64,000 nucleotides of DNA from the NCBI RefSeq assembly GCF_002272245.1, contig NZ_NPDD01000069.1, positions 1 to 64,000 on the forward strand, given 5' to 3'. Below, piece after piece: positions 5,823-29,881 of this stretch; the stretch's first letter is position 1, and each line of letters opens with the position of its first letter. This DNA comes from Bacillus sp. 7884-1. Lineage in GTDB: Bacteria; Bacillota; Bacilli; Bacillales; Cytobacillaceae. The notes under the pieces are model-generated. The model was not told the origin of the DNA, made no database searches, and saw nothing but the letters and a program-made list of their open reading frames with translations. The translations under genes were made by a program, and so were the position numbers.

Positions 5823-5845
5823 TTCAACATTTTTATACTTAAAAG

Positions 5846-5874
5846 AAAAAATGCCCATTTTATGGGCATTTTTT
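5846..5874 (+). terminator. Strong intrinsic terminator after the DUF624 gene
   Basis: Inverted repeat AAAAAATGCCCAT (5846-5858) and ATGGGCATTTTTT (5862-5874) with a 3-nt loop and a T-run. By symmetry it may also stop minus-strand transcripts from the small SinI-like gene. Confidence 0.85.
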
Positions 5875-5953
5875 GTGTTCATATTTCATTAAATCCTTAT
5901 TGCAACGTTCATGCAAGATTTGGTATGTAGGTAAATATCGAAGGAGGACATAA

Positions 5954-6082
5954 TTATGTGTTAGAAGGATCTTTTAGGAAGTCCTTAATTTCATTGATAG
6001 TAATTCCTAAATTTTGAGCTTCTAAAATGAGGTCTAGCCATTCCTTATCTAATTCTTTTTGATTTAATAGAGGTGTTAACAT
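5954..6082 (-). CDS. sinI: SinI-like antirepressor peptide (42 aa)
   Basis: A small gene that reads MLTPLLNQKELDKEW at the start and then matches the SinI/SinR dimerisation domain. The segment LDKEWLDLILEAQNLGITIN aligns residue by residue with the SinI helix (LDQEWVELMVEAKE...) and with the C-terminal domain of the SinR homologue at 29.3 kb. SinI family peptides bind SinR as heterodimers and release it from matrix-gene operators. The ATG has GGGGGA about 12 nt upstream. It stands alone, not next to sinR, and its 5' leader is a c-di-GMP-I riboswitch. SinI in B. subtilis is 57 aa; this version lacks the tail after the helical hairpin. Confidence 0.82.
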   Translation of the reverse strand: MLTPLLNQKELDKEWLDLILEAQNLGITINEIKDFLKDPSNT

Positions 6083-6111
6083 AGTACTAGGTGTCCCCCT
6101 AAAATATTAGT

Positions 6112-6190
6112 TTTTAAGTAGCTCAGCTTCATTGTTTAGCACTTTAGACCCGTAGCTTTGCATCCCATTTCGAGAGGTTTGCCTTTATCT
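6112..6190 (-). ncRNA. Cyclic-di-GMP-I (GEMM-I) riboswitch aptamer
   Basis: On the minus strand the leader shows the conserved GEMM-I elements in order: GGCAAACC (rc of 6176-6183), a CUCGAAAUGGG hairpin with a GAAA tetraloop, the invariant GAUGCAAAGC, then UACGGGUCUAAAG (tetraloop receptor and second stem) and the closing AUGAAGCUGAGCUACUU. These match the class consensus GGCAAACC...GACGCAAAGCCACGGGUCUAA...AUGAUAGCCGGGUUGCC. The first stem is short and imperfect. No U-tailed terminator lies between aptamer and start codon (about 30 nt), so control at the ribosome binding site is more likely than attenuation. The only gene in position is the SinI-like ORF. Confidence 0.9.
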
Positions 6191-6367
6191 GTATAACGTT
6201 ATAAAGTTCATAAGAAAATAGTACCACATTTATTCTATATATCGAACATAAAAGATTCTAAAAATTACGACATTTTTTTATGCTTTTTTAATAAAACTGT
6301 TACCAATTTGAACAAAGGAATACACAAGTGTAAAATAAAATGATGATATTTCATTGAAGGAGTTTAA

Positions 6368-11313: not shown

Positions 11314-13131
11314 CTAAACAACTACTTTTATATTTTCTGTTGATTGATTGGTCATATACAACAGGATTCCTTTTAGTGTTTCTCTATCGAGATAGCTATA
11401 AGTCTCAAGTAAATCTGTAATTTTCGTACTTTCCAAATTCACAGGTTTACCTACGAAAATCTTTGGATGCACCTGATAATCCTTTGCTTCATTTTGGTTT
11501 AGAATTTCTTCAAACAATTTCTCACCTGGTCTTATTCCTGAGTAAGTAATTTCTATCTCATCCTCTGAATAGCCGGATAAGCGAATCAAATTTTTAGCTA
11601 AATCAACTATTTTTACTGGTTCTCCCATATCAAGAACAAAAATCTCCCCGCCTTCTGCACGCGCTCCAGCTTGTAAAACAAGTCTAGAGGCTTCGGGGAT
11701 GGTCATAAAATATCTTGTCATATCAGGGTGTGTTACCGTAATAGGACCACCTTTCGAGATTTGATTCTTGAACAGCGGAATAACACTCCCTCTGCTTCCT
11801 AATACATTCCCAAACCGGACTGCTACGAACCTTGTATTGCTTTTTTGATTTAACTCCTGAACTATCATCTCTGCAATTCTCTTCGTAGCTCCCATTACAC
11901 TTGTTGGGTTTACAGCCTTGTCAGTCGAGATCATGACAAATGTTTCAACATAATTTTCCCCTGCTGCCTCTGCTACATTTTTTGTACCTATGACATTATT
12001 CTTTATTGCTTCTTCTGGATTTCTTTCCATTAACGGAACATGCTTATGAGCAGCTGCATGAAATACTACTCTTGGTCTATATTCATTCATAATAGAGAAT
12101 ATTTTATCCCTGTCCGTAATATCAGCAATTTCAGTTACAATTTCAATGTTGTTACATAACGAAGATTTCAATTCCATTTCAATCGTATAAATACTATTCT
12201 CCCCGTGACCAAGCAGAATAAGTTTAGATGGTTTAAATTGAGAGACTTGCCTGCAAATTTCGGAGCCAATCGATCCACCGGCACCGGTTACAAGGACCAC
12301 ACTATTAGTAATGAATTTCGAAATCGAGTTTGTATCTAATTCAACAGGCATCCTGCCCAAAAGATCTCCCGGTTCTACATTACGAATCTCACTAACTGAG
12401 ACCTTACCAGTTACCAAATCTTCAAACATTGGCATCATTTGCGTATTAACCATTGTTTTGGAACACTCCTCATAAATATTGTGCAATTCTCTTTTATTTA
12501 GGGACGGGATAGCAATAATAATATTTTCTATCTTTAGATCTTTGACCGCATCTTTAAGCATATTCAAGCCGCCAAGTACTGGTAAACCTAAAATTTCAAG
12601 GTGTTGCTTTTGTTTATCGTCATCAATAAATGCGAGAGGAATAAGTTCACCATTGCTATGTTTTAATTGTCTTGCAACCAAAATGCCAGCAGACCCAGCA
12701 CCGATAATAAGCGTTCGTTTTTTAACTTTAGTTTTTTCTGAAAAATGTTTATCTTTATAAATACGCCAAGAAAAACGTGATCCGCCAATTAAAAACATAT
12801 GCATCATCCATGTTGTTGTTAAAATCCGAAAATATACATGCTGTCCAATAATAAGTTGAATAATCGCTGCAGTGATTATTGAAAAGGTTACTGCCTTTAG
12901 AACCGTTACCATCTCACTTACACTTGCATACTCCCACGCTCTTTGATACATCTTGTATTTATAAGCAAATATATGATGACTTAAAAGCAATGTTGTTGAT
13001 ATAAGTACCAACTGTTTTACTGCAGGCATAATAAAGCCTGGGAACAAGATAAAACAGCATATATATACCGATGTAAATACAATTAAAGAATCAATTACTA
13101 TTAAAGAAAGAACCCGTTTTTGGTAACTCAC
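11314..13131 (-). CDS. epsC: EpsC/CapD-type UDP-sugar 4,6-dehydratase, membrane-anchored
   Basis: 605 aa: four N-terminal membrane helices (about 10-115), a CoA-binding-like Rossmann domain with GAGSAG at 144-149, and an extended SDR domain with TGAGGSIG at 282-289. The active-site segment is STDKAVNPTSVMGATK (402-417), where the SDR Tyr is Met, as is normal for EpsC/PglF dehydratases. It makes UDP-4-keto-6-deoxy-HexNAc from UDP-GlcNAc, the first step to bacillosamine-type sugars, feeding the EpsN-like aminotransferase upstream in the operon. The start is GTG. A SinR-like box lies 63-78 bp upstream. Confidence 0.9.
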   Translation of the reverse strand: MSYQKRVLSLIVIDSLIVFTSVYICCFILFPGFIMPAVKQLVLISTTLLLSHHIFAYKYKMYQRAWEYASVSEMVTVLKAVTFSIITAAIIQLIIGQHVYFRILTTTWMMHMFLIGGSRFSWRIYKDKHFSEKTKVKKRTLIIGAGSAGILVARQLKHSNGELIPLAFIDDDKQKQHLEILGLPVLGGLNMLKDAVKDLKIENIIIAIPSLNKRELHNIYEECSKTMVNTQMMPMFEDLVTGKVSVSEIRNVEPGDLLGRMPVELDTNSISKFITNSVVLVTGAGGSIGSEICRQVSQFKPSKLILLGHGENSIYTIEMELKSSLCNNIEIVTEIADITDRDKIFSIMNEYRPRVVFHAAAHKHVPLMERNPEEAIKNNVIGTKNVAEAAGENYVETFVMISTDKAVNPTSVMGATKRIAEMIVQELNQKSNTRFVAVRFGNVLGSRGSVIPLFKNQISKGGPITVTHPDMTRYFMTIPEASRLVLQAGARAEGGEIFVLDMGEPVKIVDLAKNLIRLSGYSEDEIEITYSGIRPGEKLFEEILNQNEAKDYQVHPKIFVGKPVNLESTKITDLLETYSYLDRETLKGILLYMTNQSTENIKVVV

Positions 13132-13193: not shown

Positions 13194-13209
13194 GTTCTTA
13201 TTAAAGAAC
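13194..13209. promoter_or_regulatory. SinR-like operator inside the eps cluster (upstream of epsC)
   Basis: GTTCTTATTAAAGAAC has two 7-bp arms (GTTCTTA and the complement of GTTCTTT) with a 2-bp spacer, the same geometry as the box at 28922. SinR recognises GTTCTYT. It lies in the 153-bp gap between the EpsN-like and EpsC-like genes; TACAAT (rc of 13160-13165) downstream could be a -10 box. Confidence 0.55.
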
Positions 13210-27596: not shown

Positions 27597-28616
27597 CTAT
27601 TTTTTATTCTTTGAGTCTTCTTCAGGTGAAGTATAATAGTTATTTTTACCTTTATCTTTAATATAGTCTGACCCTAGATTGGAATCTAAACGATTTCTCA
27701 TAGAGTCATTTGTAAATTCTACGATTGATTTATTCTTCTTTAAAATATGAAAATCCCAAATGATTCCTTCAAACTTATTATCAGAGCCGGTTATTCTTAT
27801 TGCTTGTTTAGTATTTTCAGAAATTTGAATTTGAAGGCCGCTAAACTCATTTCCAGAACTTTCATTCGGAATACTTACTGAACTATTAATGTCAATACAT
27901 CTTACACAGTCATCCAGGGTTAGATTAATAAATCGGTTGCCGTTAACAAAACTATATTTATCCTTTTCCTTTGGTTTATCAGCTTCCAATTTAACACCTG
28001 TCTGAAATCCTGCAATTCTTAAATCAGTAAAATTAACAAAAGAAATGAAATGACCAGACTCTCTAGCATAAAGATGTAGACCTGTTCCCATATGCGAATC
28101 AGTTAAGTTTATGATTGTAACATTCCTGATTTGAGTTCTATCCCATGACCAAAACTTTTGATTACCATCAAGGTATATAACATCTGAATTAAAACTATCA
28201 TCCACAATTTCAATAATTCCATTTGAGATTGATGCATTTTTTTTTACATCAATTGCTCTAAAGTTTCCTACTATTCTTAACCTAGTATTTTGACCAAACT
28301 CTAATTCAACTCCTTTTTTTATAACTAGTCCTTGCTTTACTATATAAGTCTTATTTCCTAGTAACTTTACTTTTCCGATCTTCGAATTATGGCTATGATC
28401 TATTGCTTCCTGTATAGATCCGGAGTCATCCTTCGAATCATCTCCATTAGCACCAAATTCATCCACATTCACATACTCATATACAACATTAACTGCCTTT
28501 ACTACGGCTTTGTCTTCCTTTTCCAATTTGTTGTCTACCCCGTTGTTATATAAAAAAAGAAAACCAGCTAACGAAAGAATTGCTGAAAAACTTATGATTA
28601 AACTCCTTCTATTCAT
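27597..28616 (-). CDS. Membrane-anchored right-handed beta-helix protein, first gene of eps cluster
   Basis: 339 aa with an N-terminal signal anchor (about 5-25) and a pectate-lyase-3-like beta-helix: VDEFGANGDDSKDDSGSIQEAI at about 51-72 is the typical opening of polysaccharide lyase/glycosidase helices, followed by repeated short beta rungs (GVELEFG, ASISNGIIEI, TQIRNVTIINL). No catalytic residues can be assigned with confidence. As the first gene behind the SinR-controlled promoter it may process, bind or trim the polymer. The B. subtilis eps operon has no such first gene. Confidence 0.75.
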   Translation of the reverse strand: MNRRSLIISFSAILSLAGFLFLYNNGVDNKLEKEDKAVVKAVNVVYEYVNVDEFGANGDDSKDDSGSIQEAIDHSHNSKIGKVKLLGNKTYIVKQGLVIKKGVELEFGQNTRLRIVGNFRAIDVKKNASISNGIIEIVDDSFNSDVIYLDGNQKFWSWDRTQIRNVTIINLTDSHMGTGLHLYARESGHFISFVNFTDLRIAGFQTGVKLEADKPKEKDKYSFVNGNRFINLTLDDCVRCIDINSSVSIPNESSGNEFSGLQIQISENTKQAIRITGSDNKFEGIIWDFHILKKNKSIVEFTNDSMRNRLDSNLGSDYIKDKGKNNYYTSPEEDSKNKK

Positions 28617-28664
28617 ATATATCTCCTAGTCTATATAAAAGCATATTTACCAAAACTAAAACGC

Positions 28665-28775
28665 TTAATTGTAAATCGTGGTATCACCCCCGTATACAGA
28701 TTACGCCTTTGATAGCTTTATTTCCTAAGGTTTGTCTTAGCTCCTATATGTAGGAGTTCCTTCGTTTCACATAAA
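28665..28775 (-). ncRNA. Structured 5' leader of the eps cluster, EAR-like (eps-associated RNA)
   Basis: The minus-strand leader shows consecutive hairpins: ACTCCTACATATAGGAG, CTAAGACAAACCTTAG, and a nested stem AATC/GATT enclosing GTAT-ACGGGGGTG-ATAC. Bacillales eps and capsule operons often carry EAR, an RNA that lets polymerase read through distant terminators; the size, nested stem and GGGGGTGAT..CCACGAT run fit what I recall of EAR. In B. subtilis EAR sits between epsB and epsC, whereas here it would precede the whole operon. The structural evidence is direct; the family name is provisional. Confidence 0.55.
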
Positions 28776-28780
28776 CAACA

Positions 28781-28796
28781 GTTCTATATTAAGAAC
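28781..28796. promoter_or_regulatory. SinR-type operator at the eps transcription start
   Basis: GTTCTATATTAAGAAC has outer GTTCT/AGAAC arms and the same 16-bp length as the perfect box at 28922. It directly abuts the -10 box at 28797-28802, so it covers the expected start of transcription and would block initiation when SinR binds. Confidence 0.6.
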
Positions 28797-28824
28797 ATTA
28801 TAACATTACAGGTCGAAAAAACAA
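28797..28824 (-). promoter_or_regulatory. SigA-type promoter of the eps cluster
   Basis: On the minus strand a perfect -10 TATAAT (rc of 28797-28802) lies 16 bp from a weak -35 TTGTTT (rc of 28819-28824). The start would fall near 28790, giving a leader of about 170 nt that contains the EAR-like structure. Confidence 0.6.
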
Positions 28825-28921
28825 ATTCAAAAGACACCCTAATTTGTCGGTTTTTCCTTCAATACTTGACAAATTACATTCTTATTTTCAGAAAAATATC
28901 ATCCTTTTTTATCGGAATTTA

Positions 28922-28937
28922 GTTCTTTAAAAAGAAC
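28922..28937. promoter_or_regulatory. Perfect SinR operator upstream of the eps promoter
   Basis: GTTCTTTAAAAAGAAC is a perfect inverted repeat of the SinR box GTTCTYT (7-bp arms, 2-bp spacer). It lies about 100 bp upstream of the eps -35 box and 340 bp upstream of sinR. With the operator at 28781 it could support looping or cooperative repression. Confidence 0.75.
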
Positions 28938-29267
28938 ACATTTTGATTTATACTATGATTAATGTGTAAAAGTTCGCTCCTAAATTAAGTAACTTATCTA
29001 TTTTTTTCCACGGAAGTATAGGTTAATACACTAGCGGATTCGATTTATACTTTCCTACTACATATGTGTATAACATTTCTTTAACTGACTCCAAATTACT
29101 TAACCATGACATGCAGATTGCTTATCTACTTTTTTCTTTTGGAAGTTTCCAGATAGTATGGAATAAAAGAGATTTGGGGAAATGTCTATTTTTCTTTCCG
29201 CTTCAGGTTTCTTCTGCGTTAGTTAAGTTAAATACTTGTTAGAACCAAAAATCTTAAATATGGTAAT
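28938..29267. other. Gene-free region upstream of sinR
   Basis: About 330 bp, AT-rich, without a credible ORF. A lone half-site TTAGAAC (29239-29245, complement of GTTCTAA) lies about 35 bp before sinR. I could not assign the sinR promoter with confidence. Confidence 0.4.
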
Positions 29268-29279
29268 AAGGAGAAGCCT

Positions 29280-29636
29280 ATGATTGGAGACCGATTAAAA
29301 ATCTTAAGAGAACAAAATGGATATTCAATTACAGAATTAGCCGCTCTTGCTAATGTCTCAAAATCCTATTTAAGCTATATCGAACGGAACCTTAATAAAA
29401 ATCCGTCAATTCATTTTCTAATGAAGGTTGCCAAACCTTTAGATATTTCGATTGAATATCTACTTACTGGAATTGATCAAATAGAGGATCAGACGGAAAT
29501 CAATGGGGAAAGGATACTTGATAAGGAATGGGAAATTTTGATTGAAAAAGCCATTAAAGACGGAATTGATAAAGATGATTTTAAAGAATATATAAACTAT
29601 ATTAAATTTAAAATATGGGAAAAAAACAAAAGGTGA
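29280..29636 (+). CDS. sinR: SinR-type biofilm master repressor
   Basis: 118 aa (B. subtilis SinR 111). The N-terminal Xre/434-type helix-turn-helix (MIGDRLKILREQNGYSIT..., then NVSKSYLSYIERNLNKNPSI) is nearly the SinR signature. The C-terminal domain LDKEWEILIEKAIKDGIDKD is the SinI-binding/dimerisation hairpin and parallels the 42-aa SinI-like ORF near 6 kb. SinR represses matrix operons through GTTCTYT boxes; such boxes lie between this gene and the divergent eps cluster and also inside the cluster. The ATG has AAGGAG 6 nt upstream. SlrR is a close paralogue and cannot be fully excluded. Confidence 0.88.
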   Translation: MIGDRLKILREQNGYSITELAALANVSKSYLSYIERNLNKNPSIHFLMKVAKPLDISIEYLLTGIDQIEDQTEINGERILDKEWEILIEKAIKDGIDKDDFKEYINYIKFKIWEKNKR

Positions 29637-29684
29637 TATTAAACGCTTACATTAATATATGATTCAAATAATTTGCGAAATACA

Positions 29685-29713
29685 TTGACACTCCTCCTTT
29701 AGTGTAGTAAATT
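29685..29713 (+). promoter_or_regulatory. Promoter of the S-box met operon
   Basis: A consensus -35 TTGACA (29685-29690), a 17-bp spacer and -10 TAAATT (29708-29713), placing the start about 20 nt before the riboswitch stem. Confidence 0.7.
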
Positions 29714-29740
29714 TTATAAAAAGTCTAAATATTATACTTT

Positions 29741-29854
29741 CTTATCAAGAGAGGCTGAGGGAATGGCCCTATGAAGTCTCAGCAACCTTCAATGTCTATT
29801 TTTCATTGAAAAGGTGCTAAGTCCATCAAGTTATTAGGTAACTTGTGAGATAAG
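29741..29854 (+). ncRNA. SAM-I (S-box) riboswitch aptamer
   Basis: The S-box elements are all visible: P1 strand CTTATC...GATAAG, then AGAGAGGCTGAGGGA, TGGCCCTATGAAG, CTCAGCAACC and AAGGTGCTAAGTCC. When SAM is bound the downstream terminator forms and the met operon is off. Confidence 0.95.
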
Positions 29855-29881
29855 AAGAATGACCTGTGCGAATGTGCATCC

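Follow-up and report, generated by a model that had tools for sequence, protein, structure and literature searches.

A class-I c-di-GMP riboswitch conserved before sinI as a probable translational ON switch for a SinR antagonist

Introduction

Sequence comparisons strongly support a conserved arrangement in which a class-I c-di-GMP riboswitch precedes sinI, and we consider it probable, at roughly three chances in four, that this riboswitch acts as a translational ON switch for sinI, which would free EPS genes from SinR. The SinI/SinR pair is a textbook biofilm switch, and c-di-GMP is the signal classically tied to biofilms in Gram-negative species; a conserved riboswitch before sinI would, if real, give this signal a direct entry to that switch. 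Since sinI lies downstream of a c-di-GMP sensor and SinI releases the biofilm brake in B. subtilis, the signal probably activates the matrix programme by way of RNA, and a role of c-di-GMP in the matrix of other Bacillales could be tested with a single leader and reporter.

The resemblance to B. subtilis, as described in the available part of PMC3163267, lies in a small SinI that antagonises SinR, in palindromic GTTCTYT operators and in the control of sinI by Spo0A, the known input to SinI/SinR in that organism. The difference is that the B. subtilis control genome gave no RF01051 match, whereas in the present system RNA would be the point of entry for c-di-GMP; according to the available part of PMC4879592, c-di-GMP plays no part in the biofilm control of B. 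subtilis. An earlier note on this DNA had held that c-di-GMP was not known to reach SinR by such a route. This needs correction, the pairing being already listed for Bacillus methanolicus MGA3, as (c-di-GMP)-sinI, BMMGA3_08510, in Table 4 of a transcriptome paper (PMC4342826, available in part), where a riboswitch is predicted before sinI and labelled as control of biofilm formation. Among the matches listed for literature mentioning both the riboswitch and sinI, a body of text that covers few subscription papers, the pairing was recognised only in that paper. The association is therefore not new; the entry is a table row that, in the available part of the paper, comes with no test and no account of mechanism, distribution or operator, and what is new is the breadth of the distribution, the anatomy of the proposed ON switch and the link to the operator. 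Throughout, the window is the whole stretch of DNA analysed, 64,000 nucleotides of Bacillus sp. 7884-1 (contig NZ_NPDD01000069.1), a genome placed here in Neobacillus.

Conservation of the riboswitch-sinI arrangement

RF01051 was found in 61/61 Neobacillus genomes searched and PF08671 in 60/61. When the riboswitch-SinI pair was sought at individual loci of relatives, as the earlier note had proposed, it was recovered widely. Among 30 sampled Neobacillus sinR loci, the best-scoring among 60 genomes with a match, Rfam places the riboswitch at 29, the sole negative (L061) being truncated at the edge of its contig. In another four Neobacillus loci (L179-L182), searched by regular expression only, the GEMM core is present in 4/4. 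In the other genera of the family, 128 genomes had a match, and RF01051 or its sister RF03167 stands at 49 of 62 sampled sinR/sinI loci (26 from the automatic return and 36 chosen to cover genera), representing 18/21 genera; by Rfam it is absent from the other 13, and the riboswitch-negative genera are g3 (0/4), g13 (0/1) and g25 (0/1). Outside the family, the 26 loci returned by the search include 9 with the riboswitch, in 6 families, and 17 without it by Rfam. These Rfam figures supersede aptamer counts by regular expression, which were 27/30 for Neobacillus and, with sinI downstream, 42/62 for the family. A regular-expression match at L183 was not confirmed by Rfam, and the sinI loci L090 and L098 are likewise without a riboswitch by Rfam.

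Outside Neobacillus, a SinI ORF lies directly downstream of 60/60 aptamers (two loci have two aptamers), and in 60/60 the first start codon of this ORF, which was used to set its beginning, is at most about 36 nt from the aptamer end. The riboswitch-sinI unit is convergent with sinR in most loci of the family and takes the tandem order riboswitch-sinI-sinR in five loci outside it. One locus of the window's family (L154, in G086) reaches 82.2 bits. Two loci, L247 and L250, each carry two consecutive c-di-GMP-I aptamers, every one with its own sinI-like ORF.

Leader anatomy and predicted switching

The Neobacillus leaders fall into two classes, class 1 being adjacent to sinR and class 2 being of the window's type. 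In class 1 the aptamer ends in ACCUGGAAUAC, followed by GUAUUUUAGG(A/G)G, and in class 2 CCUAAAAU is followed by AUUUUAGG(A/G)GG. Both classes possess a hairpin closing on the Shine-Dalgarno (SD) GG, the blocking pairing being CCUGGAAUAC/GUAUUUUAGG in class 1 and CCUAAAAU/AUUUUAGG in class 2. By alignment, the first C of the blocking arm would correspond to C92 of Vc2, a base that contacts the ligand (PMC4744006 and PMC9049102, both available in part), and the three bases after it pair, as P1, with the (C/U)AG immediately 5' of AAAAAGGCAAA. The P1 triplets covary: in 58 leaders, CAG/CUG occurs 25 times, UAG/CUA 12 times and UUG/CAA 3 times, the remainder comprising AAG/CUA, with two of the three pairs, in 6 and other combinations in 12. 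Altogether 152 of 174 P1 pairs are formed, against 138 in the best of 2000 permutations, a comparison which, among related sequences, does not amount to a probability.

In the anti-SD hairpin, 94.4% of cells are paired, compared with 27.5-58.6% when the arms are slid, in an alignment (A5) of 61 of the 82 leader segments; the 21 omitted segments include the divergent platforms L075, L082, L109, L126, L129, L131, L148-L150 and L154, to which this percentage consequently does not extend. Of these, L148-L150 retain a different pairing, CC/GGAGG. Changes on both sides of the hairpin amount to 3 cells, a number reached by 64/500 shuffles, the rest being mostly one-sided G-U/A-U changes, and it is for this one-sidedness that a claim of strong base-pair covariation was dropped. 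In a crude two-state calculation covering 41 of 43 leaders (L064 and L082 dropped out), the median SD pairing falls from 0.75 in the free leader to 0.14 with the ligand-bound pairs imposed, and the drop is at least 0.4 in 28/41 leaders against 69/410 shuffled platforms.

Because the SinI ORF lies so near the aptamer, little room is left for an intrinsic terminator, which makes translation the most likely level of control and a switch of terminator type improbable. The equivalent of C92 and the P1 bases sit within the SD-blocking arm, such that ligand binding and blocking, which use the same bases, would be mutually exclusive, and this makes a translational ON switch the best reading. By eye, several other GEMM leaders in Neobacillus look terminator-like.

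The mechanism that we infer, in its ligand binding and polarity as in the binding of SinI to SinR here, the input of Spo0A and the mapping of bases to Vc2, would run as follows. With little ligand, the C-C that borders the aptamer on its 3' side, together with the next bases, would pair with the Shine-Dalgarno sequence, and SinI would not be made. With c-di-GMP present, the first C (Vc2 C92) would hold the ligand while the next three bases would form P1 with the (C/U)AG upstream of GGCAAA, which would remove the base of the blocking hairpin and open the Shine-Dalgarno sequence. SinI would then titrate SinR off its palindromic operator and the EPS genes would be expressed; transcription of sinI would probably still require Spo0A~P, making an AND gate with c-di-GMP. 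The aptamer family, the G20/A47/C92 contacts and the P1/P2/P3 layout are shared with Vc2/Vc1 and with Bc1 of B. thuringiensis (PMC4744006 and PMC11218506, each available in part). According to the same sources, however, Bc1 uses long terminators and Vc1 is without an apparent anti-SD, whereas the sinI leaders would employ a short anti-SD hairpin on the C92/C93 equivalents and have an antirepressor as their target.

The Spo0A layer and Sda-like targets

The consensus of the Spo0A box is TGTCGAA. This heptamer occurs exactly in 10/15 class-2 leaders, 85-119 nt ahead of the aptamer core, the expectation from mononucleotide shuffles being 0.51 leaders over all 43 and at most 3. Its conservation in class-2 leaders suggests that the Spo0A input was probably kept and c-di-GMP added, Spo0A control then being a second layer and not a replaced one. 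Class-1 leaders (for example in L048, upstream of 1158) have a conserved TGACAAAATnTAACAC-like block and a GGACTAGATATAAT-like promoter, situated some 80-100 nt ahead of the aptamer; in part of these leaders TAGTCC follows and forms an inverted repeat across the -10 region. The TGACAAAATnTAACAC-like block may be a Spo0A box in reverse orientation or some different operator.

Leaders nearly identical to those of class-2 sinI also precede a different protein, of 70-76 aa, in L089, L091, L094, L095, L097 and L099, where they sit at about 1500-1750 in each locus. Five of these proteins were scanned: four match Pfam Sda, all under the cut-off (E 0.0018, 0.0029, 0.033 and 0.047), and one gave no Pfam Sda match. 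A PDB profile search with the 70-76-aa protein placed two Sda chains on top (E 0.038 and 0.048). Sda is a sporulation inhibitor, and c-di-GMP may also control a sporulation checkpoint through Sda-like proteins. A wider reading, which we put forward tentatively and at somewhat less than even odds, is that in much of Bacillales beyond B. subtilis c-di-GMP would set the matrix-or-spore decision through RNA, by means of translational ON riboswitches on multiple SinI paralogues and leaders of the same class on small Sda-like proteins, B. subtilis having, as an exception, lost the RNA layer. If this were true, one signal would both free the matrix genes from SinR and hold back sporulation.

The riboswitch-sinI pair in the window

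The covariance-model check called for by the earlier note, which had read a GEMM-I aptamer on the minus strand by eye, gave a match to the full RF01051 model (c-di-GMP-I) at 6114-6193 (minus strand), with 46.9 bits against an Rfam gathering score of 35 and E 4.9e-06 within the 64-kb window. In the RF01051 alignment this aptamer retains GGCAAACC, GAUGCAAAGC and the CUAA receptor strand, in agreement with the motifs that had been called visible; what that reading overlooked is a 3-nt deletion in the P2 GAAA hairpin and several departures at near-invariant columns. The bases which align with G20, A47 and C92 of Vc2, the ligand contacts in the numbering of PMC4744006 (available in part), all appear to be kept.

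The downstream gene, at 5954-6082 (minus strand), encodes a sinI-like protein of 42 aa that matches PF08671 with 44.2 bits (cut-off 31.4) and is without an HTH. A sub-threshold MerR-DNA-bind match (22.8 versus 25.4) falls on the same residues, and the alignment with the SinI of PDB 1b0n (chain B) is weak (E 0.0088). That this is the sole downstream gene, as had been proposed, agrees with the sequence, in which no other gene follows the aptamer before about 5841-5869 (minus strand), where a terminator-like hairpin and its T run are located; the transcript thus appears to consist of riboswitch and sinI alone. The pair is flanked by a DUF624 gene and a lactonase.

Further elements of the same strand were read from the letters. 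A candidate extended -10 element, TGG-TACTAT, is placed at 6218-6223, and upstream of this promoter a Spo0A-box-like TGTCGTA, one mismatch from TGTCGAA, lies at 6266-6272. The Shine-Dalgarno sequence AGGGGG occupies 6095-6100, and the predicted hairpin that would sequester it has its 5' arm, CUUAAAA, at 6112-6118, where the first C aligns with Vc2 C92, and its 3' arm, UUUUAGG, at 6098-6104, overlapping the Shine-Dalgarno sequence.

The genome has in total four c-di-GMP-I aptamers. The one on contig C109 scores 73.5 bits against RF01051, precedes a sinI of 46 aa, with which it is convergent with sinR, and has a predicted GAAA hairpin of five pairs. The C109 copy, which adjoins sinR, is a better case for a switch than the window copy, and it probably serves as the functional switch in this genome. 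Judged by its sequence, the window copy is an accessory paralogue with a decayed aptamer, the weaker of two sinI copies in the genome. In a same-species genome (G034) that is without this copy, window positions 5833-6330 are replaced by 77 nt, with one flank of 98% identity and another of 78%.

Alternative readings

How far the window copy still functions is a separate matter from the general circuit, and it seems rather probable that the circuit is real while this particular copy is a decayed riboswitch, whose sinI would be expressed without c-di-GMP control or poorly. Its 46.9 bits compare with 77.2 and 77.5 in the orthologues of G022 and G056, and set against 21 related class-2 leaders it shows the 3-nt P2 deletion, which removes the closing pairs and leaves no intact P2 with GNRA tetraloop and receptor, together with departures at 4 of 60 near-invariant columns. 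Of its P1 pairs 2/3 form. The two-state folding estimate predicts no release of the Shine-Dalgarno sequence of this leader (SD pairing 0.74 -> 0.74), whose fold is no better than that of shuffles (z 0.43). Another orthologue, L077, is likewise degraded (47.9 bits), and G043 (C11:68102-68360, in L117) carries a natural allele devoid of both aptamer and 5' anti-SD arm that retains promoter, Shine-Dalgarno sequence and sinI, no Rfam match being found in the G043 locus L078. Decay would have to be reconciled, however, with an aptamer still over the Rfam cut-off, with the retained equivalents of G20, A47 and C92, and with the retained 7-bp anti-SD hairpin, although a stem of that length arises in 31/200 shuffled segments and is hence weak evidence on its own. 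It must also be set against the state of the gene: the window sinI ORF is under purifying selection, with dN/dS 0.21-0.59 against five orthologues over 42 codons, values which do not support a pseudogene.

As to the circuit itself, the polarity could be the reverse, c-di-GMP lowering SinI and restraining the matrix. B. thuringiensis possesses riboswitches of both signs, mcpA being off and cbpA on (table in the available part of PMC7793685); the placing of the ligand-contact C and the P1 bases within the SD-blocking arm nevertheless speaks for the ON direction, as does the observation, in the same source, that high c-di-GMP in B. thuringiensis goes with more biofilm and, from deposited array data, with raised sinI expression, and we regard an OFF switch as unlikely. 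Considerably less probable still is that the aptamer senses another cyclic dinucleotide, for example 3',3'-cGAMP. Homologous aptamers that prefer cGAMP do exist, and an A at the position of Vc2 G20 is the mark of that type, but the first G of the GGCAAA core, aligned with G20, is kept in both the window and the C109 aptamers, and the genome has 11 GGDEF match rows. The notion of a chance neighbourhood, with a riboswitch that serves something else or nothing, could draw on the low score that the window copy has when considered by itself; given the SinI ORFs that directly follow the aptamers outside Neobacillus without exception, and in two gene orders, its probability is negligible, and chance pairing was rejected on this conservation. 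A translational ON switch for sinI accordingly remains our preferred reading of the circuit. One GGDEF gene, at G000:C77:11458-11939, appears in the sequence as two adjacent fragments, of which one contains an in-frame TGA.

The EPS cluster and the SinR operator

The window does contain the eps cluster that the earlier note had placed in it, as an EPS biosynthesis cluster at 8209-28616 (minus strand) with Wzz, a tyrosine-kinase-like ATPase, a flippase, Wzy, two sugar transferases, a glycosyltransferase and an acyltransferase. Divergent from this operon, at 29280-29636 (plus strand), lies a sinR-like gene with HTH_3 and a SinI-type C-terminus, the latter at 30.5 bits and thus just below the cut-off of 31.4; its protein is 41% identical to the SinR of C109. 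The SinR consensus is GTTCTYT, of which an inverted repeat is bound about ten times tighter (PMC3163267, available in part). A search with the pattern GTTCTYT-N0-4-ARAGAAC found exactly one place in the 6.0-Mb genome, the palindrome GTTCTTTAAAAAGAAC at 28922-28937, in the interval that separates the EPS operon from the sinR-like gene, and the reversed pattern, used as control, found none in the same 6.0 Mb. By its sequence, this site has what would be expected of a SinR-regulated EPS operon, a palindromic GTTCTYT near the promoter. With two mismatches allowed, the window has four operator-like sites against 0.85 expected; they include one with two mismatches at 28781-28796 and one with a single mismatch at 13194-13209, before the polysaccharide gene starting at 13131.

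Across 61 Neobacillus genomes the exact pattern has 92 occurrences and the reversed control 56, from which it follows that a lone site is weak evidence and can arise by chance. An exact operator lies within 40 kb of sinI at 9/24 class-2 loci against 0.49 expected, the limit having been set after the distances were seen, and the remaining 15/24 have no exact operator within 40 kb; the 24 include some loci without a riboswitch (G004, G019, G043 and one in G020), and the count leaves out six class-2 sinI loci (G053, G056, G057 twice and G058 twice). The region 27600-29700, comprising the EPS promoter and the sinR-like gene, was not found whole in any of six relatives searched: three gave pieces of 51-79 bases, that of G008 covering the operator, and three gave no match, so that the set-up of this EPS cluster is itself accessory. 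The direct link from c-di-GMP through SinI and SinR to EPS, which had been proposed for this window, thus stands in part. The conserved arrangement and the unique operator before the cluster argue for it, and the worn state of the window copy, with no predicted SD release, argues against it. Directly behind the sinR-like gene, at 29739-29856, is a SAM riboswitch (96.5 bits) with an apparent methionine gene cluster downstream.
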